A stretch of 64,000 nt of DNA, from positions 253,717 to 317,716 of the forward strand of contig NZ_LMKK01000001.1 of the NCBI RefSeq assembly GCF_001421485.1, in the 5' to 3' direction. Of the stretch, positions 14,401-57,598 are shown piece by piece. A program made the position numbers and the translations under genes. The notes under the pieces were generated by a model. It saw nothing but the letters and a program-made list of their open reading frames with translations. It was not told where the DNA came from and did no database searches. Source of the stretch: Agreia sp. Leaf210. Its GTDB lineage: Bacteria > Actinomycetota > Actinomycetes > Actinomycetales > Microbacteriaceae. Numbering within the stretch: position 1 is the stretch's first letter; each line of letters begins with the position of its first letter.

Positions 14401-14444
14401 GCTGCGGCCGCCGCCCCGGTCGCGCAGTGCACACTCGATGAAAC

Positions 14445-14501
14445 GGGCGGAGACGAGAGCATCCGAGCCTCTATATGGTTCGGTTGAGCTGTTCTCCGCC
14501 C
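14445..14501. repeat. Hairpin A, 3' end of element copy 1
   Basis: GGGCGGAGA (14445-14453) pairs with TCTCCGCCC (14493-14501); inside, CATCCGA faces TTCGGTTG imperfectly. It contains the stop codon and last codons of the nuclease gene. Degenerate relative of hairpin B with the same 57-nt span. Confidence 0.75.
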
Positions 14502-15421
14502 AGTGCGATGCCGCCGAGTCCGGCACGCCGGTGCCGCCCTGCCCACATGTGCTCGCGTCGTGCGACGAGGGATCGAATGACCTCCTCTATGAGCGCCCAT
14601 TGGTTCATGACCTGCGCGTAGCTCACGCGAACGACGACGAAGCCTTGACGTAGAAGCTCGAGATCACGACGCCTGTCCTCTGCGTAGGCGAGCGGTCCTG
14701 AGTGCCAGGCTTCGCCGTCGACCTCGAGGACCACCCGATCGCCGATAAGGAGATCGACGCGCCCCACGCCCTCCACGAAGACCTGGCTGCGATAGGGGAT
14801 TCCGTGCCGCCTCAAGCCCAGACGCGCCTTTGTCTCCAACCCCGACTGCGCCGCTGAATCAACAAGCGATAGGAACGAACGAAACTTCTCGGGCAGAATC
14901 GAAGCGATCTCTTCGAGTCGTTCGTGGCTCAGAATTCTCTTGTTGAGGATCGAATCGAGACTCACGATCACTTTGTCGCGGGGTTCGCAGTGAAAGAGAT
15001 GGATGACCGCCATCTCTACCGAATCGACGGAGCGGCCCGTTTCGAGTGCCTCAGATCCAGCGACCGTGCGATGTATTTGAACGCCGCGACTTCCAGGCCT
15101 GCCAAGCGGCATGCGGCGGTCGTGCGGGGCGGAGAGATGCGTTGTGTGTTTGCCCACGCGAACATGCAGGAGCCGGTCATCGTCGCACCAAACTCCGAGT
15201 CGCCGCAGTACGGATTGGCAGGTGAGCACGCCGCCGACCCGAACAGCTTGCACGATCTCCGCGTTCGCCGCCGGCGACGCCACCCAGCCTTGTCTGACCC
15301 GCAGAAGTGCACCAGAGCGCAGCTCGCGGTCGACCTCTCGGCGTGGAACGCCGCGGGTCTGCAGATAACTCAGAGATGCGACTCCGCCAGCCGAACCGAG
15401 GATGGTTTCGAGACTCGTCAT
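14471..15421 (-). CDS. AbiEi-like winged-helix protein with DUF559/Vsr-like endonuclease domain
   Basis: 316 aa. N-terminal winged helix (SYLQTRGVPRREVDRELRSG, then LLRVRQGWVA) as in AbiEi antitoxin-type proteins. The C-terminal about 90 residues are DUF559-like: VGRVDLLIGDRVVLEVDGEAWH gives Asp and Glu-x-Asp, and RRDLELLRQGFVVVRVSY follows, a PD-(D/E)XK/Vsr-type layout. No AbiEii-type toxin partner sits beside it. ATG 15421, with a CACGAT hexamer 6 nt upstream. It interrupts the rimM-trmD pair and is bracketed by hairpins. Role unknown: defence, selfish homing-like nuclease or transposition helper are all possible. Confidence 0.8.
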   Translation of the reverse strand: MTSLETILGSAGGVASLSYLQTRGVPRREVDRELRSGALLRVRQGWVASPAANAEIVQAVRVGGVLTCQSVLRRLGVWCDDDRLLHVRVGKHTTHLSAPHDRRMPLGRPGSRGVQIHRTVAGSEALETGRSVDSVEMAVIHLFHCEPRDKVIVSLDSILNKRILSHERLEEIASILPEKFRSFLSLVDSAAQSGLETKARLGLRRHGIPYRSQVFVEGVGRVDLLIGDRVVLEVDGEAWHSGPLAYAEDRRRDLELLRQGFVVVRVSYAQVMNQWALIEEVIRSLVARREHMWAGRHRRAGLGGIALGGEQLNRTI

Positions 15422-15484
15422 ACGACGATCGTGCCCGGCGCGACAAGCTCGCTGGGGAGCGTCGACAGATCTGTGGAAAACAAA

Positions 15485-15549
15485 GAACGGGCGGAGATCA
15501 GTACATCCGACTCGCTATGCGCGTCGGATGACGTAATCTCCGCCCGTTC
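15485..15549. repeat. Hairpin B, 5' end of element copy 1
   Basis: A 14-bp perfect outer stem (GAACGGGCGGAGAT, 15485-15498, with 15536-15549), 5/5 internal loop, 8-bp inner stem (CATCCGAC, 15504-15511, with 15523-15530) and 11-nt loop. It starts 11 nt after the rimM stop, so it may also end rimM transcription. Confidence 0.85.
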
Positions 15550-15560
15550 GGGTGAAGCTG

Positions 15561-16163
15561 CTACTCGGCCGGTGTGTCCTCCGGCGACGTCTCCTCGGTG
15601 GGAGTCTCGTCGTCCTCGGACTCCGGGAGCTCTTCGAGGAGGCCCGGAGGCGGCGTGATGGTCATCGTTCCGGCCACGATGTCGACGGCTGGCACGATTG
15701 CCTTGACGAACGGAACCAGCACCTCGCCGGATGCCTGCTCGATGACCAGGAGGTCTTGAGCTGGCATGTGATTGACCTGGCGCACGACGCCGATCTTCTC
15801 GCCGTCGCGGATCACGTCGAGTCCGACGAGCTGGTGGTCGAACCAGGCGTCTTCTTCGGCTGACTGCTCATCCGAGTCCTGATCGATCCAGAGGATCGCC
15901 TTGACCAGGCCTTCGGCGGCTGTTCGGTCGGGCACGCCCTTGAAGAATCCGACGGCATGGCTGTTGAACCACTTGAGCTCGATGAGTTCGAGGGTCTTGC
16001 CGTGCCACGGAGACGATGTAGGAACCTGGAGGGTGAACACCGCGCCCGGCACGAAGCGTCGTGCGGGGTCGTCGGTGAAGAGTTCCAGCTTGATCGCCCC
16101 CTTGAGCCCGTGGGCTTTCAGGAGGCGACCAACCCGGAGTTGCTGCGTCTCGTTCTTAGAAAT
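15561..16163 (-). CDS. rimM: Ribosome maturation factor RimM, apparent ATT start
   Basis: 200 aa 16S rRNA processing factor for the 30S head. The family N-terminus LRVGRLLKAHGLKGAIKLELF is present, followed by the PRC-barrel part (DHQLVGLDVIRDGEKIGVV, LVPFVKAIVPAVD) and an acidic tail. The frame is closed by TAG just upstream, and between that stop and LRVGR there is no ATG, GTG or TTG. The only AT-type codons are ATA and ATT, and ATT 16163 (ISKNETQQLRVGR) is the best candidate. The first canonical start, GTG 16052, would delete the conserved N-terminus. It overlaps khpA by 8 nt. Confidence 0.9.
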   Translation of the reverse strand: MSKNETQQLRVGRLLKAHGLKGAIKLELFTDDPARRFVPGAVFTLQVPTSSPWHGKTLELIELKWFNSHAVGFFKGVPDRTAAEGLVKAILWIDQDSDEQSAEEDAWFDHQLVGLDVIRDGEKIGVVRQVNHMPAQDLLVIEQASGEVLVPFVKAIVPAVDIVAGTMTITPPPGLLEELPESEDDETPTEETSPEDTPAE

Positions 16164-16392
16164 CGGTATCCACCACGTCTACACGAACGCGCTTGCCATC
16201 AGCGAGCGCGGCGACGAGTGTGCGGAGAGCCTTGGCCGTGCGACCCGCACGACCGATCACGCGTCCGAGGTCGTCGGGATGCACGCGCACCTCGAGAACC
16301 TCTCCGCGCGGTGAGCTCTTCGCAACGACATGCACGTCGGCAGGTTTGTCGACGATGCCCTTGACCAGGTGCTCGAGAGCAGGAGCGAGCAA
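16156..16392 (-). CDS. khpA: KH domain RNA-binding protein KhpA
   Basis: 78 aa single KH domain with the GxxG loop in LGRVIGRAGRTAKALRTLV. It binds RNA, probably as a partner of a KhpB/Jag protein. It sits 2 nt after rpsP and overlaps the start of rimM, a standard operon position in Gram-positives. Confidence 0.95.
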   Translation of the reverse strand: MLAPALEHLVKGIVDKPADVHVVAKSSPRGEVLEVRVHPDDLGRVIGRAGRTAKALRTLVAALADGKRVRVDVVDTDF

Positions 16393-16394
16393 GG

Positions 16395-16829
16395 CTAGGC
16401 CTTCTCTGCTTCAGCCTCGGGAGCCTCGTCGGCAGCCGGTGCCTCTTCGGCGGGAGCGGCAGGAGCCTCGACCTTGACCTCGGCCTTGGGCTTCAAAACC
16501 GGCTTCTTCTTCTCGTCTGCGACGAACGGCTCCTTGGGCTCCTTGACGCGCACGGTCGAGACCGCGTCCTTGTCGCCCTTGAACTTGCCCCAGTCGCCCG
16601 TGAGCTTGAGGAGAGCGGCGACCTGCTCGGTCGGCTGAGCGCCGACGCCGAGCCAGTAGAGCGCACGCTCGGACTCGATCTTGATGACCGAGGGCTCTTC
16701 GGTGGGGTGGTACTGGCCGATCTCCTCGATGACACGACCGTCGCGCTTGGTGCGCGAGTCGGCAACGACGATGCGGTAGTACGGTGCACGGATCTTGCCC
16801 ATGCGCTTCAAACGGATCTTTACAGCCAC
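16395..16829 (-). CDS. rpsP: 30S ribosomal protein S16 with long acidic tail
   Basis: 144 aa. The core [33 protein letters not shown] and [12 protein letters not shown] is typical S16 of about 80-90 residues. From about residue 105 an Ala/Glu/Lys/Pro-rich extension follows, common in actinobacterial S16. GTG start with AGGAAG upstream. First gene of rpsP-khpA-rimM. Confidence 0.96.
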
Positions 16830-17076
16830 AATTCTTCCTAGGTTTTTCTCTCGGCCCTGGTGGGCCTAAATGTGGGTGAACTGGCAGCCGTGAGCGTGGG
16901 GTGCACACTCGGCGTAAAAAGTTCTCGAGGGTTCTGCCGCAACCTGATTAGAGGGTCGGGCGGGCAGACTCGACAGATCATTCTGTCAGATATTCGACCG
17001 GCGCGCGTAATTCAGAAGCACGTTCCATCGAGTCTGTCAGGATGAGGCGATTCGCTGCTATCGATCGGAGCCGCTC

Positions 17077-18219
17077 ATGGAGATCTCGTTCGCTCATTCC
17101 GAACGCTCGACCCTCGGCATCGAGTGGGAGATCGCACTCGTCGAGCAGAGCTCGGGCGACCTGGTCAATGTCGCCGGCGACGTGCTGCAGTCTCTTCGCG
17201 GAGCCGACGGCGAAGACCACCCCCGCATCACCGAAGAGCTCCTTCTGAACACCGTCGAACTCGTCACCGCGGTGCACACCCGGGTGTCGGATGCCGTGGA
17301 CGACCTCCAGGAGCAGCTCTCCGAGGTGCGCGCCATCACCGATCCCCTCGACGTCGAGCTCATGTGCGCGGGAACGCACCCGTTCGCCCAGTGGTTCGAC
17401 CAGCAGATCACCGACAAGGAGCGGTATCACAAGCTGATCGACCGCACCCAGTGGTGGGGCCGCAACATGATGATCTGGGGCATCCACGTGCACGTCGGTG
17501 TCGAGAGCCGCGACAAGGTGCTGCCCCTGTTGAACGGTCTCCTCAACTACTACCCGCATCTGCAAGCACTCTCTGCCTCGAGCCCGTTCTGGGCGGGCGA
17601 GAAGACGGGCTACGCGTCGAACCGCGCGCTCATGTTCCAGCAGCTCCCGACAGCAGGCCTCCCCTACCAATTCGACGAGTGGTCCCAGTACGAGTCGTAC
17701 GTCGACGATATGAAGGTCACGGGCATCGTCGACGACCACACCGAGGTGCGCTGGGACATCCGGCCTTCACCGCAGTGGGGAACACTCGAGATGCGCGCCT
17801 GCGACGGCCTCTCGAGCCCGGAGGAGATCGGCGCGGTCGCGGCGTTCATCCAGTGCCTCGTCGAGCACATGTCAGATCGGCTCGACGCGGGCGAGACCCT
17901 GCCGACGCTTCAGCCCTGGTACGTGCGCGAGAACAAGTGGCGCGCTGCGCGCTACGGTCTCGACGCCGAGATCATCGTGGATGCGCGGGGCGCCGAGAAA
18001 TTGGTCACCGACGACGTGCGAGAACTGCTGGTCACCCTCGCGCCGATCGCCGAGCGGCTCGACTGCGTCGCCGAACTCGCCCAGGTGAACCTGATCCTCG
18101 AGCACGGTGCCAGCTACCAGCGCCAGCTTCGTGTCGCGGAGGAGAACGGCGGCAGCCTCAAGGCCGTGGTCGCCTCGCTTACTCGCGAACTGCGCCACGG
18201 CCTCGGGCACACCGGCTAG
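17077..18219 (+). CDS. Carboxylate-amine ligase, GCS2 (YbdK) family
   Basis: 380 aa ATP-dependent ligase of the glutamate-cysteine ligase type 2 superfamily. SERSTLGIEWEIALV and GTHPFAQW at the N-terminal half, GIHVHVGVESRDKVLPLLNGLL and RWDIRPSPQWGTLEMRACDG form the active site. The substrate is unproven: weak gamma-glutamylcysteine activity is known for relatives, while actinobacteria commonly use mycothiol. ATG 17077 with GGAG upstream. Its stop shares the tetranucleotide CTAG with the convergent LLM gene. Confidence 0.85.
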   Translation: MEISFAHSERSTLGIEWEIALVEQSSGDLVNVAGDVLQSLRGADGEDHPRITEELLLNTVELVTAVHTRVSDAVDDLQEQLSEVRAITDPLDVELMCAGTHPFAQWFDQQITDKERYHKLIDRTQWWGRNMMIWGIHVHVGVESRDKVLPLLNGLLNYYPHLQALSASSPFWAGEKTGYASNRALMFQQLPTAGLPYQFDEWSQYESYVDDMKVTGIVDDHTEVRWDIRPSPQWGTLEMRACDGLSSPEEIGAVAAFIQCLVEHMSDRLDAGETLPTLQPWYVRENKWRAARYGLDAEIIVDARGAEKLVTDDVRELLVTLAPIAERLDCVAELAQVNLILEHGASYQRQLRVAEENGGSLKAVVASLTRELRHGLGHTG

Positions 18220-19040
18220 GCGTTCTTCTCGTCGCGCCAGGCCAGCAGATCCTTGACCGGGCCGAGGTCGATCGACGGGCCCGTGATTCCGAGGGTGAAC
18301 AGCGTGACGCCCACCTCGGCCTTCTCGTCGAGAACCGCGGCGTCGGCCGAGCCGAAGGCACCGGTGAGCTTCACATCGTTCGAGATCTCGATCTCCGAGA
18401 CGTCGCGGCCGACATCCGACGCGTGTCCGCGCAGAACCTCGAGCTTGTGCTGCAGAGTCGGCACGTCGGAGAAGCTGTGCCAGATCGTCGCGTGCTTCGC
18501 GACGAGCTTGAGCGTCTTCTTCTCGCCACCACCGCCGATCAGTACGGGGATCTTGCGGGTGGGAGCCGGGTTGAGTACACCCCACCGCGCCTCAATGCGC
18601 GGCATGGCCTCGCCCAGCGCATCCAGTCTCTGCCCGACCGTGCCGAACTCGTAGCCGTACTCGTCGTAGTCTCGCTCGAACCAGCCCGAGCCGATACCGA
18701 AGACGAGCCGACCCTCGGCGCCCGGGGTCTTGGCGCTGATGTGGTCCACGGTGCGGGCCATGTCGGCGAGCAGGTCGGGGTTCCGATAGCTGTTACACGT
18801 GACGAGGGGGCCGAACTCGATGGTCGAGGTCTGCTCGGCCCAGGCGGCGAGCATGCTCCAGCCCTCGAAGTGCAGGCCCGCGGGGTCTCCCGACAGCGGG
18901 TAGAAGTGATCCCAGTTGAAGGCGATATCGACGCCGAGTTCCTCGAGCTGACGAAGAGTGTCACGGATCGTCGTGTAGTCGGAGTGCTGGGGTGCGATCT
19001 GAATGCCGATGCGCACGGGGCGCGAAGAGTGTGTCGTCAT
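18216..19040 (-). CDS. LLM class F420-dependent oxidoreductase
   Basis: 274 aa luciferase-like TIM barrel. RIGIQIAPQHSDY opens strand 1, DIAFNWDHFYPLSG is the F420-type strand-2 signature, and RLVFGIGSGWFERDYDEYGYEFG is diagnostic. Substrate unknown. Own leaderless promoter. Ends convergently on the GCS2 gene with overlapping stops. Confidence 0.88.
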   Translation of the reverse strand: MTTHSSRPVRIGIQIAPQHSDYTTIRDTLRQLEELGVDIAFNWDHFYPLSGDPAGLHFEGWSMLAAWAEQTSTIEFGPLVTCNSYRNPDLLADMARTVDHISAKTPGAEGRLVFGIGSGWFERDYDEYGYEFGTVGQRLDALGEAMPRIEARWGVLNPAPTRKIPVLIGGGGEKKTLKLVAKHATIWHSFSDVPTLQHKLEVLRGHASDVGRDVSEIEISNDVKLTGAFGSADAAVLDEKAEVGVTLFTLGITGPSIDLGPVKDLLAWRDEKNA

Positions 19041-19046
19041 GATGCG

Positions 19047-19052
19047 AGCCTA
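19047..19052 (-). promoter_or_regulatory. -10 hexamer TAGGCT, leaderless promoter of the LLM gene
   Basis: TAGGCT, CGCATC, ATG on the minus strand, identical in hexamer and spacing to trmD and moaA. Confidence 0.55.
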
Positions 19053-19102
19053 CTTATCACGCCTGTTCGAGAACTCACCTTGCGGCATCCGGCATCTCAC
19101 CT

Positions 19103-19108
19103 CACAAT
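19103..19108 (+). promoter_or_regulatory. -10 hexamer CACAAT, leaderless promoter of the M23 peptidase gene
   Basis: CACAAT, six bases, GTG 19115; supports the GTG rather than the later ATG as start. Confidence 0.4.
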
Positions 19109-19114
19109 GAACAG

Positions 19115-19891
19115 GTGAAGTCGATAGAGCCGAAGTCTGCGAACATGCGCCCTCAGCGGCCGCGTCGCAACATCGCCTCCCGGTTTCTCCCTCCTGCCGC
19201 GCTGCTCTTCGTCGGCGCACTGGCGGTTGCCACGTCCCTTCCGGCCGCAGCATTCGGGCCCGGCTCGTCGTTCGGACTCACCGGGGCCACGGGCGGTCCG
19301 CAGTCACAGGATCAGCTGCTCTCGGTCGATGGCTCGGCCGCCGACGCCAGCGTTCTGCGCGACGGCTACACCGTGAACACCCCCACGCCCACACCCACCC
19401 CGACGCCTGTGGTCAAGGCCGCCCCCGCGTCGACGGGAGGAAGCCCGGGAGGATGGGGCTGCCAGCGAGACGCCCCCGCCGAGACGACGCGCCTCACCTG
19501 GCCATACGACCATCCCGTCAAGATCGGCGACGGATTCGGTCCACGCGCCGAGGGTATGCACGACGGCATCGACATGCTCGCCGGAGACGGCACGCCCATC
19601 CAGGCGATCGGCGACGGCGTCGTCACCGCGTCGGGCTACAACGGCTCAGCGGGCAATTACGTGGCGATCGCCACCATGGTCGGCGGACAGCGCCTCTGCA
19701 GCATGTACATGCACTTCCAAGACGGATCCGTGACCGTCACCGTGGGGCAGGAGGTCACGGCCGGCACCGTGATCGGGCTCACCGGCGACACCGGCAACGC
19801 CAGTGTCGAGCACCTGCACTTCGAGCTGTTCTTCGCCGACGGTATCCGCTTCGACGCGATCCCCTACCTCACGGCGAACGCGAGCTACTGA
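19115..19891 (+). CDS. Secreted M23 family metallopeptidase
   Basis: 258 aa exported peptidoglycan endopeptidase. A basic N-region and hydrophobic segment (LPPAALLFVGALAVATSLPAAA) form a signal or anchor. A Thr-Pro repeat (TPTPTPTPTP) links to a LytM domain at about 145-258 with zinc ligands in GMHDGIDM and EHLHFELF. GTG start from the leaderless -10. Probably cleaves cell-wall crosslinks outside the membrane. Confidence 0.9.
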   Translation: MKSIEPKSANMRPQRPRRNIASRFLPPAALLFVGALAVATSLPAAAFGPGSSFGLTGATGGPQSQDQLLSVDGSAADASVLRDGYTVNTPTPTPTPTPVVKAAPASTGGSPGGWGCQRDAPAETTRLTWPYDHPVKIGDGFGPRAEGMHDGIDMLAGDGTPIQAIGDGVVTASGYNGSAGNYVAIATMVGGQRLCSMYMHFQDGSVTVTVGQEVTAGTVIGLTGDTGNASVEHLHFELFFADGIRFDAIPYLTANASY

Positions 19892-19932
19892 GCCCGCCTC
19901 CTCCAAGAGGCTCGGAGGACCACGGAACGCCG

Positions 19933-21504
19933 CTAGCGACCCAAAAACTTCTGCAGCGAGGCCAGCTCTTCTTCGCTCGGAGCGCCCGGTGCCGACTTGC
20001 CCTTGCCGAGCCCCAGGCCGAAGCCCGAGCCGCCCGCCGTGACGGGCGCGGCATCCGGTTTGATGCCGGCGGCGCGCGCCGCATCTTCGGCCGCACGCTT
20101 CGCCGGGTTGCCCGACTTCGAGCCCTTCTTCTTAGCGACCTGCTTGCGTCCGCCGTGGGCGCCGGGAACCGGGCCCATTCCGGGGATGTTCGGCATGCCG
20201 CCCTTGGCCACGGTCTTCATCATCTTCGCGGCCTGCTCGAATCGCTGCACGAGCTGGTTCACGTCGGTGACCGTCATGCCGGATCCCTTGGCGATGCGCA
20301 CGCGGCGCGAGCCGTTGAGCAGCTTGGAGTTCTGCCGCTCGGCCTTGGTCATCGACTGGATGATCGCCTCGGTGCGCACGATCTCGCGCTCGTCGAAGTT
20401 CTCGAGCTGCTGCTTCATGCCGCCCATGCCGGGCAGCATGCCCATCATCTTCTTGATGGAGCCCGCGCCGCGGAGCTGCTGCATCTGCGACAGGAAGTCC
20501 TCGAGCGTGAAGGTGTCGGTGGCGAACTTCTCGGCCATCTTCATGGCCTCACCCTCGTCGAAGGCCGACTGGGCCTGCTCGATGAGGGTCAGGATGTCAC
20601 CGAGGTCGAGGATGCGGCTCGCCATACGGTCGGGGTAGAAGGGCTCGAAGTCGTCGAGCGACTCGCCCGTCGACGCGAAGATGATCGGTCGACCGGTGAC
20701 GGAGGCTACCGAGAGGGCTGCTCCACCGCGGGCGTCGCCGTCGAGCTTGGTCAGCACGACACCCGTGAAGTCGACACCGTCTTGGAAGGCCTTGGCCGTC
20801 GCGACCGCGTCTTGACCGATCATGGCGTCGATGACGAAGAGCACCTCGTCGGGATCGACGGCCTTGCGGATGTCTGAGGCCTGCTTCATCATGTCGGCGT
20901 CGACACCGAGGCGACCTGCCGTGTCGACGATGACCACGTCGTACTGCTTGTCGATGGCGAACTTGATGGAGTCTTTCGCGACCTTCACGGGGTTTCCCGT
21001 GCCGTTGCCGGGCTCGGGAGCGAAGACGGCGACTCCGGCCTGTCCGGCCACGACCTGCAGCTGGTTGACGGCGTTGGGGCGCTGAAGATCGGCGGCGACC
21101 AGCAGCGGCGTGTGGTTGTCTTTGGCCAGCCACTTGGCGAGCTTGCCCGCGAGCGTCGTCTTACCGGCGCCCTGTAGACCGGCGAGCATGATCACTGTCG
21201 GCGGCTTCTTCGCGAACTGGATGCGGCGGGCCTCGCCGCCGAGGATCGCCACGAGTTCTTCGTTGACGATCTGCACGACCTGCTGCGCCGGGTTGAGCGC
21301 CTTGTTGACCTCGTCGCCCAGCGCGCGCTCGCGCACCTTGCCGGTGAAGTCCTTGACCACCTCGAGCGCGACGTCGGCGTCGAGCAGGGCGCGGCGGATC
21401 TCGCGCACGGTCGCGTCGACATCCGCGGGGCTCAGCTTGCCCTTGGTGCGAAGGTTCTTGAAGGTCTCTGCGAGCCGGTCAGACAGGTTTCCGAAAGTAG
21501 CCAT
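19933..21504 (-). CDS. ffh: Signal recognition particle protein Ffh
   Basis: 523 aa GTPase that binds signal sequences with SRP RNA and hands nascent chains to FtsY. Order: N domain, G1 GLQGAGKTTLAGKLA, G3 DTAGRLGVD, G4 TKLDGDARGG, then a Met-rich M domain (MQQLRGAGSIKKMMGMLPGMGGMKQQ in pieces) and a Gly/Lys-rich C-terminus. TAAACT 9 nt before the ATG is a likely -10. ftsY is about 3.9 kb away on the same strand. Confidence 0.97.
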   Translation of the reverse strand: MATFGNLSDRLAETFKNLRTKGKLSPADVDATVREIRRALLDADVALEVVKDFTGKVRERALGDEVNKALNPAQQVVQIVNEELVAILGGEARRIQFAKKPPTVIMLAGLQGAGKTTLAGKLAKWLAKDNHTPLLVAADLQRPNAVNQLQVVAGQAGVAVFAPEPGNGTGNPVKVAKDSIKFAIDKQYDVVIVDTAGRLGVDADMMKQASDIRKAVDPDEVLFVIDAMIGQDAVATAKAFQDGVDFTGVVLTKLDGDARGGAALSVASVTGRPIIFASTGESLDDFEPFYPDRMASRILDLGDILTLIEQAQSAFDEGEAMKMAEKFATDTFTLEDFLSQMQQLRGAGSIKKMMGMLPGMGGMKQQLENFDEREIVRTEAIIQSMTKAERQNSKLLNGSRRVRIAKGSGMTVTDVNQLVQRFEQAAKMMKTVAKGGMPNIPGMGPVPGAHGGRKQVAKKKGSKSGNPAKRAAEDAARAAGIKPDAAPVTAGGSGFGLGLGKGKSAPGAPSEEELASLQKFLGR

Positions 21505-21615: not shown

Positions 21616-21619
21616 AGAT

Positions 21620-23394: not shown

Positions 23395-23418
23395 GCGCGG
23401 ATCCCCAAGCGTCAAGCG

Positions 23419-46845: not shown

Positions 46846-48162
46846 ATGCTCCTCATCCGCAATGCCATCACGACGATGATCGACGAGACGCACGAAAGCG
46901 CCGCTGACCTGGCTCTCGCCGACGGGGTCGTGGTCTCCGCGGCCATCGCGGCGACCAGCGAGGGCGACGAGACAGACGTGCTGGATGCCTCCGGATGCGT
47001 GGTGACCCCGGGCCTCGTGAACGCTCACCACCATCTTCTGCAGAGCGCGTTCCGCACACTTCCCGGCACGCGCGGCGTCGCCATGAGCGACTGGCTGCCG
47101 ACGATGGCGGCGGCGTATGGCCGTGTCGGAATCGATCCCGAACTCGCGCGGGCCGCCGCTCGCGTCGGCGTAGCGGAGGGTCTGCTCTCGGGTGTCACCA
47201 CCGTCGCCGATCACCACCTCACCTGGCCCGCGGGCAGCGACGATGTGGGCATCGCGCGCGCCACCGCCTCGGCTGCCGCGGAGCTCGGCGGCAGACTGGT
47301 CTTCGTGCGCGGCTCCGCCCGCGATGACCCGGAGGAAGCCGCCCTGTCGGCGGAGCGCATCGTCAGCGCGTTGGTTCCGCAGGGTGAGGCCGGCATCTCG
47401 AACGACGGGATGCTGCAGCTCGCGGTCGGGCCGGCCGGGGTGCACAGCGACAGCGAGGAGACGTTCCGGCTGCTCGCGGAGGTCGCTCGGCGGCATGGAC
47501 TGCGCAGGCGCACTCAGGCCAACGAGCAGGTCGACGTGGCGATCGCTCTCGAAAAATACGGCCGGCGCCCCCTCGACCTGCTCGACGAGTGGGGCTGGCT
47601 CGCACCCGATGTCACGATCGCCCATCTCTGTGCGGTCACGCCCGAGGAGATCGCGCGGCTCGCATCCGCCGGTGTCACCGCGACCCACGCGCCCGGCTGC
47701 GACCTGCCCATGGGCTGGGGAATCGCGCCCGTGGCGGCGCTGCGGCAGGCCGGCATCGCCGTCGGACTCGGCACGAGCGGCGGTGGCAGCAACGACGCCG
47801 GGCATCTGCTGGCCGACGCGCGTCTCGCCATGCAGGTCGCTCCGCTCGTCGGTCGTCCCCTCGCGGCGCGGGAGGTCCTCGCGATGGCGAGCGAGGGGTC
47901 GGCCACCGGTCTGGGCCGCGACGAGTTGGGGCATCTTCGACATGGCGCCGCGGCAGACGTGTGCGTCTGGGATGTCTCCGGGGTGGCCGACGCCGGAGTC
48001 GCAGACCCTCTTGCAGGCCTGCTCTGGGCGAGCCCCGGCCGACGCCCGAAGCACGTCGTGGTGGGCGGACGGGTGGTCGTGCGCGACTACGAACTCGTGG
48101 GCCGCGACCAGCGCGACCTGGCCTCCGATCTGACGGCGCTTCTGGCTTCGAGAACCGCCTGA
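46846..48162 (+). CDS. Amidohydrolase of the 8-oxoguanine/triazine deaminase type with altered metal ligands
   Basis: 438 aa. Family features: VVTPGLVNAHHHLLQ with the HxH pair near residues 61-63, GVTTVADHHL, His260 in TIAHLCAV, and C-terminal KHVVVGGRVVVRD. Two residues that bind metal in characterised relatives are different: the HxxE motif reads Gln224-Ala-Asn-Glu227, and the strand-8 Asp is Ser311 in LGTSGGGSND. The catalytic Glu and His remain. It may use another metal arrangement or act on another substrate. Purine context suggests a purine-like ring. Confidence 0.75.
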   Translation: MLLIRNAITTMIDETHESAADLALADGVVVSAAIAATSEGDETDVLDASGCVVTPGLVNAHHHLLQSAFRTLPGTRGVAMSDWLPTMAAAYGRVGIDPELARAAARVGVAEGLLSGVTTVADHHLTWPAGSDDVGIARATASAAAELGGRLVFVRGSARDDPEEAALSAERIVSALVPQGEAGISNDGMLQLAVGPAGVHSDSEETFRLLAEVARRHGLRRRTQANEQVDVAIALEKYGRRPLDLLDEWGWLAPDVTIAHLCAVTPEEIARLASAGVTATHAPGCDLPMGWGIAPVAALRQAGIAVGLGTSGGGSNDAGHLLADARLAMQVAPLVGRPLAAREVLAMASEGSATGLGRDELGHLRHGAAADVCVWDVSGVADAGVADPLAGLLWASPGRRPKHVVVGGRVVVRDYELVGRDQRDLASDLTALLASRTA

Positions 48163-50628: not shown

Positions 50629-51407
50629 CGAGCCCGATGACGCTGACGACAGACACCCCTGCCGAGACGACGACGACCGAGCTTCTCCATTTCTCCGACG
50701 TCGCCATGACGTTCCCCAACGGCACGACCGCACTCTCCGGTGTCGATCTCACGGTCAAGAAAGGCGAGTTCGTCACCGTCGTCGGGCCGTCGGGATGCGG
50801 AAAGTCCACGCTGCTGCGCATCGCCTCAGGGCTCACCCCTGCGACGGCAGGCGAGACGAATGTCGCCACCAAGCGCATCGGCTACGTCTTCCAAGACGCG
50901 ACGCTGTTGCCGTGGCGAACCGTGCAGGCGAATGTCGAGCTGCTCGCCGAGTTGAACGGCATCCCCAAGAAGACCCGCGTCGCCGAGGCCGCCAAGGCCA
51001 TCGAACTCGTGGGACTCGCGGGGTTCGAGAAGCACCTGCCCAAGACGCTCTCCGGCGGCATGCGCATGCGCGCCTCGCTGGCGCGGTCGCTGACGCTCGA
51101 CCCCGAGCTCTTTCTCTTCGACGAGCCGTTCGGCGCCCTCGACGAGATCACGCGCGAGCGCCTGAACGACGAGCTGATCAAGCTCTTCACCGAGCAGCAG
51201 TTCGCCGGACTCTTCATCACCCACTCGGTCTCCGAGGCCGTCTACCTGTCGACCAGGGTCGTCGTGATGTCGGGCCGCCCGGGCAAGATCGTCGAGACCT
51301 TCGACGTTCCCTTCGCCTACCCCCGTGATCCTGAGATCCGCTTCACCCCCGAGTTCGCCGAGCTCGCCGGCGAGGTCTCGCACGCGCTCAGAAAGGGACA
51401 CTCGTGA
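50625..51407 (+). CDS. ABC transporter ATP-binding protein, NitT/TauT type
   Basis: 260 aa. Walker A GPSGCGKSTLLRIASGL, signature TLSGGMRMRASLARSL, Walker [15 protein letters not shown], His switch ITHSVSEAVYLS. GTG 50625 overlaps the deaminase stop (GTGA); ATG 50637 is an alternative. Powers uptake of the operon substrate. Confidence 0.9.
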   Translation: MTSPMTLTTDTPAETTTTELLHFSDVAMTFPNGTTALSGVDLTVKKGEFVTVVGPSGCGKSTLLRIASGLTPATAGETNVATKRIGYVFQDATLLPWRTVQANVELLAELNGIPKKTRVAEAAKAIELVGLAGFEKHLPKTLSGGMRMRASLARSLTLDPELFLFDEPFGALDEITRERLNDELIKLFTEQQFAGLFITHSVSEAVYLSTRVVVMSGRPGKIVETFDVPFAYPRDPEIRFTPEFAELAGEVSHALRKGHS

Positions 51408-52273
51408 CCACGACCGCTCCACCGACCGGGCCGGTCGCCACGAACCCGAAGATCCGCACCGTGTCGCGCGCATCCGAGATGCCGAAGCGACGTGGCGGCC
51501 GATTCCCCGCGTGGGTTCCACCCGTCATCGTCTTCATCGTCATTCTGGCGATCTGGTATTTCGTCAGCTACGTGCTGCTCGACCCGGCGCGGTCGTTCCT
51601 CGTTCCGGCGCCCCACGTGATCATCGAAGAGGCGTTCTTCGACCCGAAGACTCTGGGCGACATCATGGGCGCTCTGGCCCGCTCGGCCGGAGTCGCTCTC
51701 ACGGGACTCGCGATCGCCATCGTGATCGGCTTCGTCTGGGCCGTCGCCATGAGCCAGGCACGCTGGATCGAGCGTTCGCTCTTTCCGTACGCCGTCATCC
51801 TCCAGTGCATTCCGATCCTGGCCCTCGTGCCGCTGATCGGCTTCTGGTTCGGCTTCGACTTTCCCGCCCGCGTGATCGTCTGCGTCATGATCGCGCTGTT
51901 CCCGATCGTGTCGAACACGCTCTTCGGGCTGCAGTCGGTCGACAAGGGCCAGCGCGAGCTGTTCCAGCTGCAGAAGGCCAGTCGCTGGACCGTTCTCCTC
52001 AAGCTGGAGTTCCCGGCCGCGCTTCCGGCGATCTTCGCCGGTATGCGCATCTCCGCCGGCCTCGCGGTCGTCGGCGCCATCGTCGGCGATTTCTTCTTCC
52101 GACGCGGCGAGCCCGGCCTGGGGTCGCTGATCAGCAACTACCAATCGCGCGTGCAGGGCGCCGAACTCTTCGCCGCGATCATCGTCGCCTCGCTCTTCGG
52201 CGTCGTGGTCTTCCTCGTGTTCGGCTGGCTCGGCAAACTCGCCGTCGGCCGCTGGTACGACTACAGCAAGTAG
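51404..52273 (+). CDS. ABC transporter permease, NitT/TauT type
   Basis: 289 aa, six membrane helices after a basic N-terminus. The BPD_transp_1 EAA loop is FQLQKASRWTVLLKLEFPAALPAIFAGMRI. GTG start overlaps the ATPase stop by GTGA. Confidence 0.9.
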   Translation: MTTTAPPTGPVATNPKIRTVSRASEMPKRRGGRFPAWVPPVIVFIVILAIWYFVSYVLLDPARSFLVPAPHVIIEEAFFDPKTLGDIMGALARSAGVALTGLAIAIVIGFVWAVAMSQARWIERSLFPYAVILQCIPILALVPLIGFWFGFDFPARVIVCVMIALFPIVSNTLFGLQSVDKGQRELFQLQKASRWTVLLKLEFPAALPAIFAGMRISAGLAVVGAIVGDFFFRRGEPGLGSLISNYQSRVQGAELFAAIIVASLFGVVVFLVFGWLGKLAVGRWYDYSK

Positions 52274-52371
52274 CACCTCGGCGCAGGCCGACCCTCGACT
52301 CACCCATCCCCAGCAGCACCCTTCACAGCACCGAACCGCTTTGCATCCTGCACATCACACAAGGAGATGAA

Positions 52372-53547
52372 ATGCGCATCACTCGATCGAGGTCACTCAT
52401 GGCCGCGGGTCTTCTCGCCTCAACGGCTCTCGTCCTCACCGGTTGCTCCGCGGGCGCAACCGACACCGCCACCGACGCGAGCAAGGATCTGAAAATCGGT
52501 TCGGTCGACCTCGCGGCCGCCGGCTGCCCGGCGACCGTCACGATCCAGACCGACTGGAACCCCGAGGCGGAGCACGGCCACCTGTACTCCATGTTCGGTG
52601 ACGATGCCGTGGTCGACGCGGGCAACAAGAGCGTCTCCGGCCCCCTGTACTCGAAGGGCGAATACACGGGCGTGAACCTCGAAGTGCGCTCCGGCGGTCC
52701 GGCGATCGGCTTCCAGACCGTGACGTCGCAGATGTACACCGACGACAGCATCACCCTCGGCTACTCGAACACCGACGAGGCGATCCAGCTGTCGGCCGAC
52801 ATGCCCACCACCGCCGTCTTCGCGCCGCTCGACATCAACCCCCAGATGATCATGTGGGATCCGAAGACATACCCCGATGTGAAGACCATCGCCGAACTGG
52901 CGAAGGCCGGCGCCGTCATCAAGTACTTCGGTGGAGCGGCGTACATGGAGTACCTCAAGGGTGCGGGAATCGTTCCCGAAGCTCAGGCCGACGGCGGCTA
53001 CGACGGAACCCCCGCCAACTTCGTGACGGCTCAGGGCAAGGACGCGCAGCAGGGCTTCGCGAGTGCCGAGCCCTACGTGTACGAGAACGAGGTCGATGCC
53101 TGGAAGAAGCCGGTCGCGTACCAGCTGATCCACGACGCCGGCTACCCGATCTACGCGGCGGCCGTCTCGGTGCGTTCCGCTGATCTCGAGAAGCTCTCGC
53201 CCTGCCTCACCAAGCTCGTGCCCGTGCTGCAGCAGGCCGAGGTCGACTACTTCGCCGACCCCGCCGCGACCAACAAGCTCATCCTCGACCTCGTCGACCA
53301 GTTCGACACCGGCTGGGTCTACGACGAGGGCGTGGCCGACTACTCGGTCGACACCATGAAGAAGCTCGGTCTGGTGAGCAACGGCGACAACGCCTACATC
53401 GGCGACTTCGACGAGGCCCGTATCCAGAAGGTCCTCGACATCGACACCCCGATCTTCACCAAGCTCGGCACTCCCCCGGCAGACGGTCTGAAGACCTCCG
53501 ACCTCTTCACCAACGAGTTCATCGACCAGACCATCGGCCTGAAGTAA
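52372..53547 (+). CDS. ABC transporter substrate-binding lipoprotein (NMT1/THI5-like)
   Basis: 391 aa. Lipobox ALVLTGC near residue 25. TIQTDWNPEAEHGHLYSMFGD is the NMT1/THI5-like opening of binding proteins for pyrimidine-type or riboflavin-type ligands; NPQMIMWDPKTYPDVKTIAEL follows. AAGGAG gives a strong ribosome site. 98 nt separate it from the permease gene. Ligand unknown, probably an N-heterocycle. Confidence 0.85.
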   Translation: MRITRSRSLMAAGLLASTALVLTGCSAGATDTATDASKDLKIGSVDLAAAGCPATVTIQTDWNPEAEHGHLYSMFGDDAVVDAGNKSVSGPLYSKGEYTGVNLEVRSGGPAIGFQTVTSQMYTDDSITLGYSNTDEAIQLSADMPTTAVFAPLDINPQMIMWDPKTYPDVKTIAELAKAGAVIKYFGGAAYMEYLKGAGIVPEAQADGGYDGTPANFVTAQGKDAQQGFASAEPYVYENEVDAWKKPVAYQLIHDAGYPIYAAAVSVRSADLEKLSPCLTKLVPVLQQAEVDYFADPAATNKLILDLVDQFDTGWVYDEGVADYSVDTMKKLGLVSNGDNAYIGDFDEARIQKVLDIDTPIFTKLGTPPADGLKTSDLFTNEFIDQTIGLK

Positions 53548-53577
53548 CCCGTAGCTGCAGAACCGTCGGCCCATCAT

Positions 53578-53619
53578 CGGTCGCCCGTCGCACCACCTCG
53601 CGTGGGTGACGGGCGACCG
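53578..53619. terminator. Hairpin between the binding protein and FAD oxidase genes
   Basis: CGGTCGCCCGTC (53578-53589) pairs perfectly with 53608-53619 across an 18-nt loop that can pair further. It lies 30 nt after the lipoprotein stop; it could stabilise the transporter mRNA or partly terminate it. Confidence 0.6.
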
Positions 53620-53662
53620 GTGACGGGCCATCATCATTCGGCACCATCTAAGGACCCGCACC

Positions 53663-54982
53663 ATGACCGACCTCACCGAGCCCATCGCATCCCTCGCCAC
53701 AGAACTCGCCGCGATTCTGGGTGAGCGCGGCGTGACGACCGAGCTCCGCGCCCGCGAGAAGGCCTCGGCCGACGGCTCGTATCTGTCTCCGATCATCACC
53801 GAGCAGCTTCCGCTCGGGCTCGCCGACATCGTGGCCTTCCCGACCACGGCCGAGCAGGTCGCACAGGTGATCGCCGCCGCCGTTCGTCACGGGGTGGGAA
53901 TCACCCCCCGCGGCAAAGGCACGGGCAACTACGGCCAGGCCATCCCCATCGAGAACGGTCTCGTGCTCGACCTGTCGAAGCTGCGCGGGGTCGTCGAGGT
54001 CGGCGACGGGTTCCTCACGGCATTGGCCGGCACCCCGATCGTCACGATCGAGCAGGCGGCGCGCGAGTCGGGCCAGCAGATTCTCATGTACCCGTCGACG
54101 GCGCAGTCGTCGATCGGCGGCTTCCTCTCGGGCGGCTCCGGCGGAACCGGATCCATCGCGCACGGCTCGAATCACGAGGGCTTCGTTCTGGCCCTCGATG
54201 TCGTGCACGCGACACCGGATGCGCAGCTCGTGCACGTGGACGGCGACGAGGCGCAGCCCTACGTGCACACCTACGGCACGGCCGGAATCATCGCCCAGGC
54301 CACGATCGCACTCGAGCCCCTGCAAGACTGGCGGGGCCTGTTCGCCAGCTTCGACACCTTCTCCGAGGCCATCTCCGTGATCCGCGAGATCGGACAGCTC
54401 GAGCCGACGCCGCGGCTGGTGTCTGCCGATCTGCCCGTACTGGCCAATGCGCTGCCGGCCGACCCGGGCATCCCCAAAGACCGCGCGAGCCTGCGCGCCA
54501 TCATCGACATCGCGGCCGTCCCCGCCGCGACGGCCCTCATCGAGGCCGCGGGAGGCCGAGTCGAAGAGGTGCGCGAGGGCCCTCAGACCGCCATGAAGCT
54601 CAGCATGATCTCGTACAACCACCCCATCGAGTGGCTGCAGAAGAGCGACCCGGGCAAGTACTTTCACATCGAGGTCGCCGGCGACGCACTCGTCGACCGC
54701 ATCGACGAGGTGCACGCGGTGTACCCCGGCGGCATGCTGCACATCGAGGCCCAGAAAAACCGCCCAATCGGCATGCTCGCCGGCATCTACGAGAGCGCCG
54801 AGAAGGTCTACGAGGGCTTCGACAAGCTCGCTGCGATCGGCGTCGGCGTGCACAACCCGCACGTCTGGTTCGTCGACCACGAGGTCGAACGCACGCTGGC
54901 CCTCGCCGAAACCACCGATCCCCAGGGTCTGCTGAACCCCGGCAAGCTGCAGGGCAAGGGCGTCGTCGGAGCCGCGTCATGA
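53663..54982 (+). CDS. FAD-binding oxidase, GlcD-like
   Basis: 439 aa flavoprotein of the PCMH/vanillyl-alcohol-oxidase fold. PRGKGTGNYGQAIPIENGLVLDLS and STAQSSIGGFLSGGSGGTGSI bind FAD; the C-terminal NPHVWFVDH and DPQGLLNPGKL close the FAD-oxidase C domain. It may oxidise the imported compound or its deamination product. Coupled by ATGA to the creatininase gene. Confidence 0.85.
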   Translation: MTDLTEPIASLATELAAILGERGVTTELRAREKASADGSYLSPIITEQLPLGLADIVAFPTTAEQVAQVIAAAVRHGVGITPRGKGTGNYGQAIPIENGLVLDLSKLRGVVEVGDGFLTALAGTPIVTIEQAARESGQQILMYPSTAQSSIGGFLSGGSGGTGSIAHGSNHEGFVLALDVVHATPDAQLVHVDGDEAQPYVHTYGTAGIIAQATIALEPLQDWRGLFASFDTFSEAISVIREIGQLEPTPRLVSADLPVLANALPADPGIPKDRASLRAIIDIAAVPAATALIEAAGGRVEEVREGPQTAMKLSMISYNHPIEWLQKSDPGKYFHIEVAGDALVDRIDEVHAVYPGGMLHIEAQKNRPIGMLAGIYESAEKVYEGFDKLAAIGVGVHNPHVWFVDHEVERTLALAETTDPQGLLNPGKLQGKGVVGAAS

Positions 54983-55806
54983 GCGGCGCCCCTACGGGCG
55001 ATCCCGTCGTGAACGACCTGGGAACGCGCAAACTGGTCGAGCTGTCGGGGCCGGCCGCGACAGCGGCGCTCGACGCCGACTCCGTCGTCGTCATTCCCAC
55101 GGGGGCGATCGAGCACCACGGATCGCATCTTCCTCTGATGACCGACTACCTGCTGGCGGATGCGATCGCGAACGCCGCCGTCGAGCGCGCCGCATCGCAG
55201 GGTGTCGACGCGTGGATTCTGCCGACCCTGGCGTACACCAAGAGCGACGAGCACCACTGGGCATCCGGAACCATGTGGCTCACCTGGGAGACGATGATGA
55301 ACACCATCGTCGACCTGGGCAACTCGATCGCCGCGACCCCCGCGAACAAGGTGGCGTTCTTCAACGGCCACGGGGGCAATCTCGCGCTGCTGCAGGTCGC
55401 CTGCCGCGAGTTGCGACGCCGTTTCGGGTTGCAGACATTCCTGCTCGGGCCGATCGTGCCGCCGATGGCAGACGGCACGGGCGACGGGCCCGACGAGCTG
55501 GGACTCGGCATCCACGGCGGCCACAGTGAGACGTCGCTGATCATGCACATCCGACCCGATCTCGTCGATCTCTCACTGGCTCAGCGCAGTGTTCCCGAGC
55601 ACCTGGCCGACTACGAGCACATCGGATTCAAGAAGCCCGTCTCGTTCGGCTGGCTGTCGAACGACTTCGGAACAGACGGCGTACTCGGCGACGCGACGGC
55701 TGCCAACGCGGCGTACGGCGCTGAGCTGTTCGAGCACTCCGTGGAGCAGGCCGCGGCGGCGTTCGCAGAGATCGCGCGCTTCGACCCGGCCGGGCCCGTG
55801 GCGTGA
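54979..55806 (+). CDS. Creatininase family amidohydrolase
   Basis: 275 aa dinuclear-metal cyclic amide hydrolase. IPTGAIEHHGSHLPLMTDY carries Glu45, His47 and Asp56; FFNGHGGNLALL and IHGGHSETSL supply the rest. Members open creatinine, or act in riboflavin/F420, mycofactocin and oxidised-pyrimidine pathways. Here the operon points to ring opening of the imported heterocycle. Confidence 0.88.
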   Translation: MSGAPTGDPVVNDLGTRKLVELSGPAATAALDADSVVVIPTGAIEHHGSHLPLMTDYLLADAIANAAVERAASQGVDAWILPTLAYTKSDEHHWASGTMWLTWETMMNTIVDLGNSIAATPANKVAFFNGHGGNLALLQVACRELRRRFGLQTFLLGPIVPPMADGTGDGPDELGLGIHGGHSETSLIMHIRPDLVDLSLAQRSVPEHLADYEHIGFKKPVSFGWLSNDFGTDGVLGDATAANAAYGAELFEHSVEQAAAAFAEIARFDPAGPVA

Positions 55807-56402
55807 ACGTGCGCGCACCGGAGCCCACCATTCCCGACGAGGCCTTCGCGGTCTTGACCGAGTGGCTTCCTGCGAACGGCGACCACGCTCGGCCGCTCAT
55901 CGCGCTGGCCACGGTCGACGTCGAGGGGCGCCCGGATTCGCGCAGCGTGCTGCTCAGCGAGTTCGATCGCAGCGGGTTCTTCGTGCACACCGATTCGCGC
56001 TCGCGCAAAGTCGCCGATGTGGAGGCCCACCCGGAGGTGGCGTTCTCGATCGCCTGGCCGGCCGATCTGCGTCAGTTGACGGTGCAGGGTGTCGCGCGAC
56101 GCGCATCCCCAGAAGAAGAAGCATCTGCGTACGCTCGACGGTCTCGCTACCTGCAGTTGCTGGCGTGGCTCAATACCCCCGAGTTCGCTCTGCTGCCGAC
56201 AGATGAGCAAGAGCAGAGCTGGGCCGCCTTCGACGCCGCTCACCCGGACGGCACGCTGACTTCCCCGGACACATGGCTCGGTTTCGTGATCGAGCCCACG
56301 CGGCTCACGTTTTGGGAGGGCAACCCTCGAGCGGCGAGCCGCCGCACCGAGTACCGCTCTGCCGCGGACGGCACCTGGAGCACGGCGACTCTCCCCGGCT
56401 GA
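55803..56402 (+). CDS. Pyridoxamine 5'-phosphate oxidase-like flavoprotein
   Basis: 199 aa split beta-barrel. LIALATVDVEGRPDSRSVLLSEFDRSGFFVHTDSRSRKVADVEAHPEVAF (in parts) and the C-terminal RTEYRSAADGTWSTATL resemble PdxH. GTG start GTGA-coupled to the creatininase gene, so it may serve the heterocycle pathway rather than vitamin B6 synthesis. Last gene of the operon; hairpin C follows 21 nt later. Confidence 0.8.
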   Translation: MNVRAPEPTIPDEAFAVLTEWLPANGDHARPLIALATVDVEGRPDSRSVLLSEFDRSGFFVHTDSRSRKVADVEAHPEVAFSIAWPADLRQLTVQGVARRASPEEEASAYARRSRYLQLLAWLNTPEFALLPTDEQEQSWAAFDAAHPDGTLTSPDTWLGFVIEPTRLTFWEGNPRAASRRTEYRSAADGTWSTATLPG

Positions 56403-56423
56403 GCCGGTCTCGCGCACGCTTTC

Positions 56424-56482
56424 GTGCCCGAATGCCTCCATTCGTGCAACGAGACCGCGCGCAAATGGAGGTATTCGGGCAC
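56424..56482. repeat. Hairpin C, 3' end of element copy 2
   Basis: The 19-nt arms 56424-56442 and 56464-56482 pair with one G-T wobble, plus four more pairs inside and an 11-nt loop. It begins 2 nt after the nuclease gene stop, so may end its transcript. Confidence 0.88.
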
Positions 56483-56484
56483 AA

Positions 56485-57432
56485 TTACCGCCGCGTCACG
56501 ATCGTCAGTCCTGCCGCGAGCAGAAACGGCTTCAGTCGACGCGGGTTCATTCCGATATCCCAGTCCCATCGAGAGAAGCCCGGACCGAGCGCACGTATCC
56601 GATCCTCTCTGATCTTCTCGTCGAAGAGGATCTGCGTGAGCGATCTGCCTCGAGTCAGCTCGTCGTCGAAGTACTTCGCACGTCCGTCAGCCTCGCCCAC
56701 ACGATTCAATTCGCGCCAAAAGAAGTCGCTGTACCCGATGAGACCGCGGTAGTCGCGCCATTCCACCTGCAGCTCCGGCGCAGGAAATCCCAGCAAGTGA
56801 ATGTTGACCCGGCTGCCTGATTCCAAGGGACTCTCCGCCAGATGCGTCGCGAATTCCAGAACACGTCGAGCACGGACGTGGCCGCGAAAAGGCAGTCGGT
56901 TCTCCCAGACCTCGGCAAGCGTGGCCTTCTCGATTCGAGTCTCCCGCTTATGGCACAGGGCGAAGTCCGCTGCGGTAACGGCAGACATGAACGTCGAGTC
57001 CACAGCGAGATCGAGCACCGTTCGAGCCACCGAAGTGACGAGCATTCCGTCGATGAGCACGACGTCGTCGGCATCCACCCCGATCGCGTGACGGACGATC
57101 TCGCCGCGCGAACGAACAGTCGACGCGCGGTCGACGATGACATGCAGCCGAGTGGGCCACGCGCCGATCAGGGGTATGCCGTGGATGGCGGCCGCGGTCC
57201 AGTGGGAGAAGACGGGAGCGGACTTCCACCGTTCGGAGGCCGCTCGCGCCCGTTGCGTTGTGCGCTGAATCTCGTTCAGCGCGTCCCAATGCTGCCGCGA
57301 CATGTAGCTTCCGGGCGCGATGCGGGCGAGCTCGTCCCGTCGAACGGCCCGCGTCAGCGCGTTCGCGCTGTTGCCTGTCTTACGCACATCGCGCGCGAAA
57401 ACGAGAGAAGCATCAGATGAAGGAGTGTCCAT
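56485..57432 (-). CDS. AbiEi-like winged-helix protein with PD-(D/E)XK-type C-terminal domain
   Basis: 315 aa. N-terminal helices and wing (NALTRAVRRDELARIAPGSYM) resemble AbiEi-type antitoxin domains. The middle part has FSHWTAAAIHGIPLIG and VTSVARTVLDLAVDSTF. The C-terminal GYSDFFWRELNRVGEADGRAKYFDDE has the Asp...Glu-x-Asp-Gly-x-x-Lys spacing of a nuclease. ATG 57432 starts at MDTPSSD; the longer frame runs through hairpin D. No toxin partner. Paralogous in design, not in close sequence, to the 14471-15421 gene. Confidence 0.78.
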   Translation of the reverse strand: MDTPSSDASLVFARDVRKTGNSANALTRAVRRDELARIAPGSYMSRQHWDALNEIQRTTQRARAASERWKSAPVFSHWTAAAIHGIPLIGAWPTRLHVIVDRASTVRSRGEIVRHAIGVDADDVVLIDGMLVTSVARTVLDLAVDSTFMSAVTAADFALCHKRETRIEKATLAEVWENRLPFRGHVRARRVLEFATHLAESPLESGSRVNIHLLGFPAPELQVEWRDYRGLIGYSDFFWRELNRVGEADGRAKYFDDELTRGRSLTQILFDEKIREDRIRALGPGFSRWDWDIGMNPRRLKPFLLAAGLTIVTRR

Positions 57433-57539
57433 GGCCACAGCCAAGCGCCTCGCCTCGCCACCCACCCCGCAGAGGTCGGCAGCTGGGGAGGGATACGGGA
57501 GTCTCGACGCTGGGTAGGAGAGGTCGACGCGCGGTGATC

Positions 57540-57598
57540 GTGCCCGAATACCTCCATGTGCGCACTCTTCTTCTGCACGAATGGAGGTATTCGGGCAC
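57540..57598. repeat. Hairpin D, 5' end of element copy 2
   Basis: Perfect 18-bp arms (57540-57557 with 57581-57598) and further GTGC/GCAC pairing inside. It is an inverted copy of hairpin C. A third partial arm, GTGCCCGAA, follows at 57604-57612, only 21 nt from the reductase stop. Confidence 0.88.

Follow-up and report, generated by a model that had tools for sequence, protein, structure and literature searches.

What ties a solitary gene for a nuclease-like protein to the two palindromes that enclose it? The question is raised twice within a 64,000-nucleotide (nt) stretch of Agreia sp. Leaf210 (NZ_LMKK01000001.1, positions 253,717–317,716; hereafter the window, in whose numbering all coordinates are given), where two genes, designated E1 and E2 and encoding proteins of 316 and 315 amino acids (aa), are each enclosed by a pair of similar palindromes, the pair at one locus differing from that at the other, as a preliminary description of this DNA had pointed out. 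Our analyses suggest, by analogy with REPIN–RAYT systems, that each gene may encode an AbiEi–Vsr-type nuclease dedicated to its own palindrome, a reading that we regard as evenly poised and in which we infer the binding, the nicking or cutting, and the copying of the palindromes.

Palindrome pairs around a family of solitary genes

A search of eight Agreia genomes (G000–G007, the window's own 3.54-Mb genome being G000) for the family PF18741 returned 59 matches, 15 of which lie in frames of more than 1000 aa and were left out. With E2 added, the remaining 44 give 45 loci, and all of these save L098, which is close to a contig end, were scored in a flank test, a local alignment of the 5′ flank of each gene against its own 3′ flank. 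Controls were 161 neighbouring open reading frames (ORFs), taken as longest-ORF calls within the same stretches. Twenty-four of the 44 family genes score above every control (top control 26, top target 60), so that the enrichment of flanking palindromes proposed earlier as a check on the two window loci proves positive. Within the window's genome, five of seven solitary genes surpass all controls (E1 28, E2 58, L114 57, L088 53, L093 29); L115 (24) falls in the control tail though its palindromes visibly belong to one family, and L083 (16) is without a pair. Wherever palindromes were found, their family differs site by site, with a length range of about 40–110 nt across the gene family. For 28 loci at eight sites, selected as places where a pair was in most cases already in evidence, similarity between a locus's own 5′ and 3′ flanks averages 36.4, versus 11.9 (maximum 22) between different sites.

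The E1 palindromes, type 1 (GGGMGGAGA...TCTCCKCCC), are 73% alike across 60 nt in direct register. The 3′ copy (14442–14501, 57-nt core 14445–14501) extends over the final 31 nt of E1, and the 5′ copy (15485–15549, 57-nt core 15489–15545) lies between the rimM stop codon and the E1 start, 63 nt upstream of the latter. The E2 palindromes, type 2 (GTGCCCGAATRCCTCCAT...ATGGAGGTATTCGGGCAC), are 59 nt each, the 3′ copy (56424–56482) starting 2 nt past the E2 stop codon and the 5′ copy (57540–57598) lying 107 nt upstream of the start. The preliminary description was therefore right about the equal lengths (57/57 and 59/59) and the distances upstream, whereas its 3′ hairpin touching the stop codon is to be corrected to an overlap in E1 and a 2-nt gap in E2.

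The E1 protein (14471–15421, minus strand) is predicted to combine an AbiEi-like fold with a PD-(D/E)XK/Vsr-type nuclease domain (MTES_1575/DUF559). Its predicted structure (mean predicted local distance difference test score, pLDDT, 89) matches the AbiEi antitoxin 6y8q (expectation value, E, 2.3e-6; 197 columns), the catalytic domain of the homing endonuclease I-Bth0305I (3r3p; E 1.2e-3, template-modelling score 0.77 on the target) and Vsr (1vsr; E 0.02), in keeping with the parallel to Vsr-like homing enzymes suggested earlier. In Pfam, DUF559 exceeds its cut-off, MTES_1575 (E 4.5e-7) falls below its own, and AbiEi_4 reaches only E 0.14. Because Pfam locates the nuclease domain at residues 203–281, the AbiEi-like part, for which the structure matches give no ranges, can be placed N-terminal of it. 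The expected PD-(D/E)XK core residues are conserved, D223 and D235 being invariant and E233 nearly so, and these three are predicted to be catalytic.

The AbiEi-type protein of E2 (56485–57432, minus strand) matches a PADLOC AbiEi model (E 4.5e-16), AbiEi_4 in Pfam (E 2.7e-4, below cut-off) and, weakly, 6y8q (E 4.7e-3). No Pfam nuclease match was found in E2, and its model is poor across the C-terminal half; 8 of 13 relatives aligned with it match MTES_1575, an alignment that makes a C-terminal nuclease half probable. Hence the order claimed for both proteins, winged helix then nuclease, holds for E1 by Pfam and model, while for E2 the AbiEi-like part stands and the nuclease half is probable, by way of its relatives.

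Both genes are resident at sites anchored by neighbours that, from their sequences, we take to be rimM (15561–16052, minus strand), the anchor for E1, and trmD (13657–14388, minus strand), its second neighbour, and a pdxH-like gene (55803–56402, plus strand), the anchor for E2. Orthologues of E1 lie between rimM and trmD in all eight Agreia genomes and in four records of other lineages (two Herbiconiux, Subtercola boreus and Microbacteriaceae bacterium 3FA27C10), 12 genomes in total, and E2 is absent beside pdxH in G001 and G005. By the synteny of their flanks, the 45 loci fall into 19 groups, of which eleven draw members from at least two genomes. Since orthologues occupy conserved sites, "insertion" behind neighbouring stop codons, the term used in the preliminary description, does not suit the genes.

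Two side observations belong here. The aligned stretch of the S. boreus E1 orthologue (L245) contains one in-frame stop, possibly reflecting a decaying copy or a match that overruns the gene end. A distinct solitary protein, L118 (G000:C2:366000-374200), combines multiple treble-clef zinc fingers of the DUF4379 type with a C-terminus that weakly matches MTES_1575/DUF559; a palindrome lies ~340 nt downstream of its gene, and the flank test found no matched pair there.

Form, concerted change and scattered copies of the palindromes

As single-stranded DNA, all four window palindromes out-fold 200 of 200 shuffles (z −4.3, −9.4, −8.1 and −9.6). Among twenty type-1 57-mers, compensatory changes along the stem occupy 51 cells versus 32 when shuffled, a value that none of 500 shuffles reaches and below which slid controls also fall; pairing itself therefore seems to be kept, by a measure that relatedness of the copies can inflate. 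Type 2 has a constant length of 59 nt in fourteen copies (one further copy, L032, has 60 nt), with strongly conserved outer arms of ~19 bp and a centre showing neither sequence conservation nor pairing beyond shuffles. Such a fixed length around an unconserved, unpaired centre fits a pair of inverted half-sites kept a set distance apart. The palindrome sequence at the E1 site is not conserved, being GGGCGGAGAT or GGGAGGAGAT in Agreia, TGCAGAAATAACG-like in Herbiconiux and CAATCGGCGGCCCTGC-like in Subtercola. At rimM–trmD in G004 (L257) and G005 (L111), the cores of the E1 5′ palindromes are 59 nt, not 57 nt, long.

Sequence comparison indicates that the two palindromes flanking E1 evolve in concert: at the nine loci with both copies present, their similarity within a genome is 30.2, versus 16.7 to their counterparts elsewhere (permutation p=2e-4). 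The corresponding values for E2 are 46.8 and 37.8 (five loci, p=0.03). Palindrome similarity also tracks protein similarity across 16 sites, each represented by one palindrome picked by hand (Mantel r=0.30, p=0.002), and does so when E1 orthologues are included (r=0.57, p=5e-5, n=21), so that the co-variation of protein and palindrome on which the preliminary description had set its proposal is indeed found. Likewise, 34 scattered type-1 copies are closer to the E1 palindromes of their own genome than to those of others (p=5e-4), mainly on account of one genome, G007.

These scattered copies are single and mostly few. A pattern leaving the type-1 centre free matches 8, 7, 13, 13, 9, 7, 6 and 16 times in the eight Agreia genomes (79 matches, flanking copies included), and the reversed control pattern has no match in them. 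The window's genome holds ten pairs of type-2 arms at 40–41 nt spacing plus two single arms that also lie within palindromes, about 12 palindromes altogether; the strict type-2 pattern matches 5, 0, 2, 0, 2, 1, 0 and 0 times in the eight genomes. Comparison across species, covering 7 of 16 type-2 sites searched in full or nearly so, finds that species differ in occupancy at sites A, D, E, F and G, a site without the palindrome sometimes holding another repeat; all three aligned genomes carry the palindrome at site C, and the pattern at site B is complex. It is thus the single palindromes that are polymorphic while the genes stay at conserved sites, and the notion of a mobile element inserting as a unit is unsupported. 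In G003, a composite type-1 repeat occurs in six closely similar copies at five places.

Several further features of these copies deserve mention. All 22 type-2 arms of the window's genome lie on contig C1 (~35% of the assembly), which is very unlikely under independent placement and may point to local spreading or to some role specific to that region. ORFs of the 0.5–1.2-kb stretches at site B show no family match, and the idea that single palindromes there are remnants of full elements was dropped. Two identical type-1 palindromes stand 199 nt apart in G007 (contig C103, L162). In G004, where the E1 5′ palindrome has its 59-nt core, the two scattered copies compared are 57-mers whose best match is the E1 palindromes of G003, as would be expected after a replacement of E1. 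Further repeats (CGTTCCCTGAGCTTGTCGAAGG-like, CTGGTCGAGTAGCGAGG...TCTCGATACG-like and CTAACGGAGCAC-like; L039, L156, L210, L213, L221, L222, L229 and L230) adjoin type-1 copies or, in some species that lack a type-2 palindrome, occupy its place.

Relatives in the phylum and comparison with known systems

Matched flanks recur in other families of the Actinomycetota. Six loci taken from nine matches in a plasmid collection score 28, 27, 60 and 83 in Tsukamurella (L259–L262), 60 in Collinsella (L263) and 127 in Actinomyces oris (L264), and in three of these records none of the control ORFs (29, 32 and 32) scores as high as the target, the top controls being 28, 44 and 19; the two lowest Tsukamurella scores do not surpass the top Tsukamurella control, and the L262 repeat is weakly palindromic. 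In a 0.9-Mb Collinsella record, the palindrome was located at 17 places, counting those beside the gene. Two plasmid-labelled records, NZ_LR134451.1, with secA and mtrAB, and NZ_OY725717.1, with ftsX and ftsE, look like chromosome pieces.

The closest analogy is with REPIN–RAYT systems (REPtrons), in which, according to the portions of PMC3116915 and PMC3733652 consulted, an enzyme gene present once per genome and inherited vertically has palindromic repeats on its flanks, additional copies are scattered between genes and every enzyme is paired with a repeat family of its own. In our set, one palindrome family flanks a single-copy gene in the 24 of 44 cases identified by the flank test, and scattered intergenic copies exist for types 1 and 2 and for Collinsella. 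The differences are equally plain. The enzyme is an AbiEi–PD-(D/E)XK protein, Vsr-type in the E1 model, rather than a Y1 transposase; the palindromes measure about 40–110 nt, against 20–40 bp for single REPs; and the copies found are few (6–16 of type 1 per genome, flanking ones included). A search for the Y1 (HUH)/RAYT transposase family PF01797 found none in the eight Agreia genomes, with the control positive in 5 of 14. A RAYT was accordingly set aside as the source of the palindromes, and the enzyme–palindrome pair is not a member of the REPIN–RAYT class, though the parallel to RAYT and REP drawn in the preliminary description fits.

Each half of the protein has its own precedent. E1 shares with the AbiEi antitoxins of the type IV toxin–antitoxin system AbiE the fold of 6y8q, which recognises paired inverted repeats; as reported in the part of PMC7319586 available to us, each of AbiEi and Rv2827c binds paired inverted repeats of 23 bp and leaves the other's sites unbound, so that a dedicated protein for each palindrome would not be without precedent. 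Unlike AbiEi, the present protein has a nuclease domain joined on, a toxin partner is not evident among the neighbouring ORFs read, and palindromes are found at the 3′ end and elsewhere too. With Vsr-like (EDxHD) homing endonucleases such as I-Bth0305I, E1 shares the modelled fold of the catalytic domain (3r3p, 1vsr); unlike them, it was not seen within an intron or intein, the remainder of the protein is AbiEi-like, and the gene, rather than being mobile within its own cleavage site, keeps its orthologous position. In the open PubMed Central text searched, we recognised no description of AbiEi/DUF559-nuclease genes with matched palindromes.

We therefore propose a model in which each locus comprises a resident enzyme gene and its own palindrome family, the enzyme being an AbiEi-antitoxin-like part fused to a PD-(D/E)XK nuclease of the Vsr/EDxHD-homing-endonuclease type. 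The protein would bind the palindrome as two inverted half-sites, from which autoregulation at the 5′ copy would follow, and would nick or cut at palindromic sites, whereupon repair would copy palindromes from site to site. In the long term, single copies would become scattered between genes, flanking copies would be homogenised, and protein and palindrome would be kept matched, the palindromes depending on the protein as REPINs do on a single-copy RAYT. That the palindrome is the protein's predicted binding site seems to us probable; that the nuclease drives palindrome copying is a proposition with an even prospect. More tentatively, and at somewhat less than even chances, these loci may represent a phylum-wide class of palindrome replicators in the Actinomycetota, each with its own sessile AbiEi–Vsr-type nuclease, that would be a second, independently evolved counterpart of REPIN–RAYT with a different enzyme chemistry. 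The interpretation offered in the preliminary description is, overall, partly supported.

If real, such a phylum-wide class could provide the enzyme that is lacking for families of palindromic repeats in genomes devoid of RAYTs. For many palindromic repeat families of bacteria no enzyme is known, and a solitary nuclease with its own palindromes would be a testable enzyme–repeat pair outside the RAYTs; in the consulted part of PMC3733652, CGTC repeats seem to be without a dedicated transposase, and families lacking the tags of that survey are yet to be assessed. The model also suggests a function for proteins currently annotated as AbiEi-family antitoxins or DUF559, and the loci present a case of two short DNA sites evolving together at one fixed locus.

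Evidence against the model and rival explanations

A number of observations weigh against a dedicated nuclease. Twenty of the 44 Agreia genes fail the flank test, some being truncated or over-long ORF calls and some having one palindrome or none. Among Microbacteriaceae outside the genus, for which 12 loci were counted from 20 (the other 8 repeat genomes already in the set), just three score above 26 (L243 51, L253 33, L245 30), the remainder being L246 at 25 and the rest at 14–19. A 5′ palindrome was undetected at L253 despite its score, and the E1 orthologues L242, L244 and L247 retain the 5′ palindrome only. Only E1 and E2 reach significance for concerted change; the six other sites, with two or three loci each, are individually non-significant, and at three of them (S094, S075 and S091) the two flanks of a locus resemble each other no more closely than they resemble flanks from other genomes. 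The own-genome match of scattered type-1 copies rests on G007 (5 of 5 best), p being 0.22 without it. Strict type-2 counts do not follow the presence of E2 (5, 2, 0, 2 and 0 with it; 0, 1 and 0 without), type-2 single copies persist in two genomes, G001 and G005, without E2 beside pdxH, and no target-site duplication was seen at the type-2 sites compared. For type 3 and for A. oris, no palindromes turned up beyond the flanking pair. PD-(D/E)XK enzymes are not known to form a covalent DNA intermediate, so that insertion at a new site would need a repair step.

The main rival is that the palindromes are AbiEi-type operators, the 5′ copy serving autoregulation and the other copies acting as regulatory or boundary sites, with the enzyme copying nothing. 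The solitary 5′ palindromes of the three E1 orthologues just named and the likeness of type 2 to two half-sites at fixed spacing both favour it, as does the autoregulation of AbiEi and Rv2827c through paired inverted repeats (PMC7319586, in the part consulted). Nevertheless, a second copy at the 3′ end, the closely similar scattered copies in G003 and the joint change of both E1 flanking copies are not readily explained by operators. Nor do the scattered copies mostly occupy divergent, promoter-rich positions: type-2 rows are convergent in 8 cases, inside a called gene in 5, tandem in 1 and divergent in none (n=14), and type-1 rows are convergent in 14, tandem in 11, inside in 6 and divergent in 4 (n=35), counts that rest on crude gene calls and include some orthologous copies across genomes, so that not all rows are independent. 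We judge this explanation unlikely, if worth serious attention.

The same tabulation bears on a second rival, which holds that the palindromes are ordinary transcription terminators, alike because one type is common per genome. Many sites lie directly behind stop codons and between convergent genes, the folds are stable, and four of the nine E1-flanking rows, kept apart from the 35 type-1 rows above (L065 twice, L069, L071, L072 twice, L073 and L140 twice, all tandem), have at least five T within 9 nt past the palindrome on one side, the E1 side at the 5′ palindrome. Termination between rimM and E1 is therefore plausible, and the E1 5′ palindrome may also be a terminator. At scattered copies, T-tracts are few (1 of 14 type-2 rows, 3 of 35 type-1 rows), and canonical terminators were set aside there. 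Actinobacterial terminators can lack T-tracts, so this scarcity is not decisive. Terminators also leave unexplained the matched pairs in this family, seen in none of the 161 controls, and the separate palindrome family of each site, and as a general account they appear improbable.

Slightly more improbable still is a selfish cassette, in which gene and palindromes would insert and home as a unit in the manner of a free-standing homing endonuclease gene. The resemblance of the E1 model to the I-Bth0305I catalytic domain and a weak PADLOC match to "homing endonuclease" (E 4e-4) speak for it; the family genes group by conserved site, E1 recurs at rimM–trmD in 12 genomes, and no recent gene insertion was seen among the loci examined. 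A defence nuclease insulated or marked by palindromes, to which the PADLOC AbiEi matches might point, is very improbable, since it leaves the scattered palindromes unexplained and no AbiEii toxin gene was evident on reading the ORFs beside E1 or E2, a reading made without a dedicated search.

Lastly, the window contains more palindromes, at 8556–8593, 47523–47584, 53568–53629 and 62601–62671, which resemble neither type 1 nor type 2.

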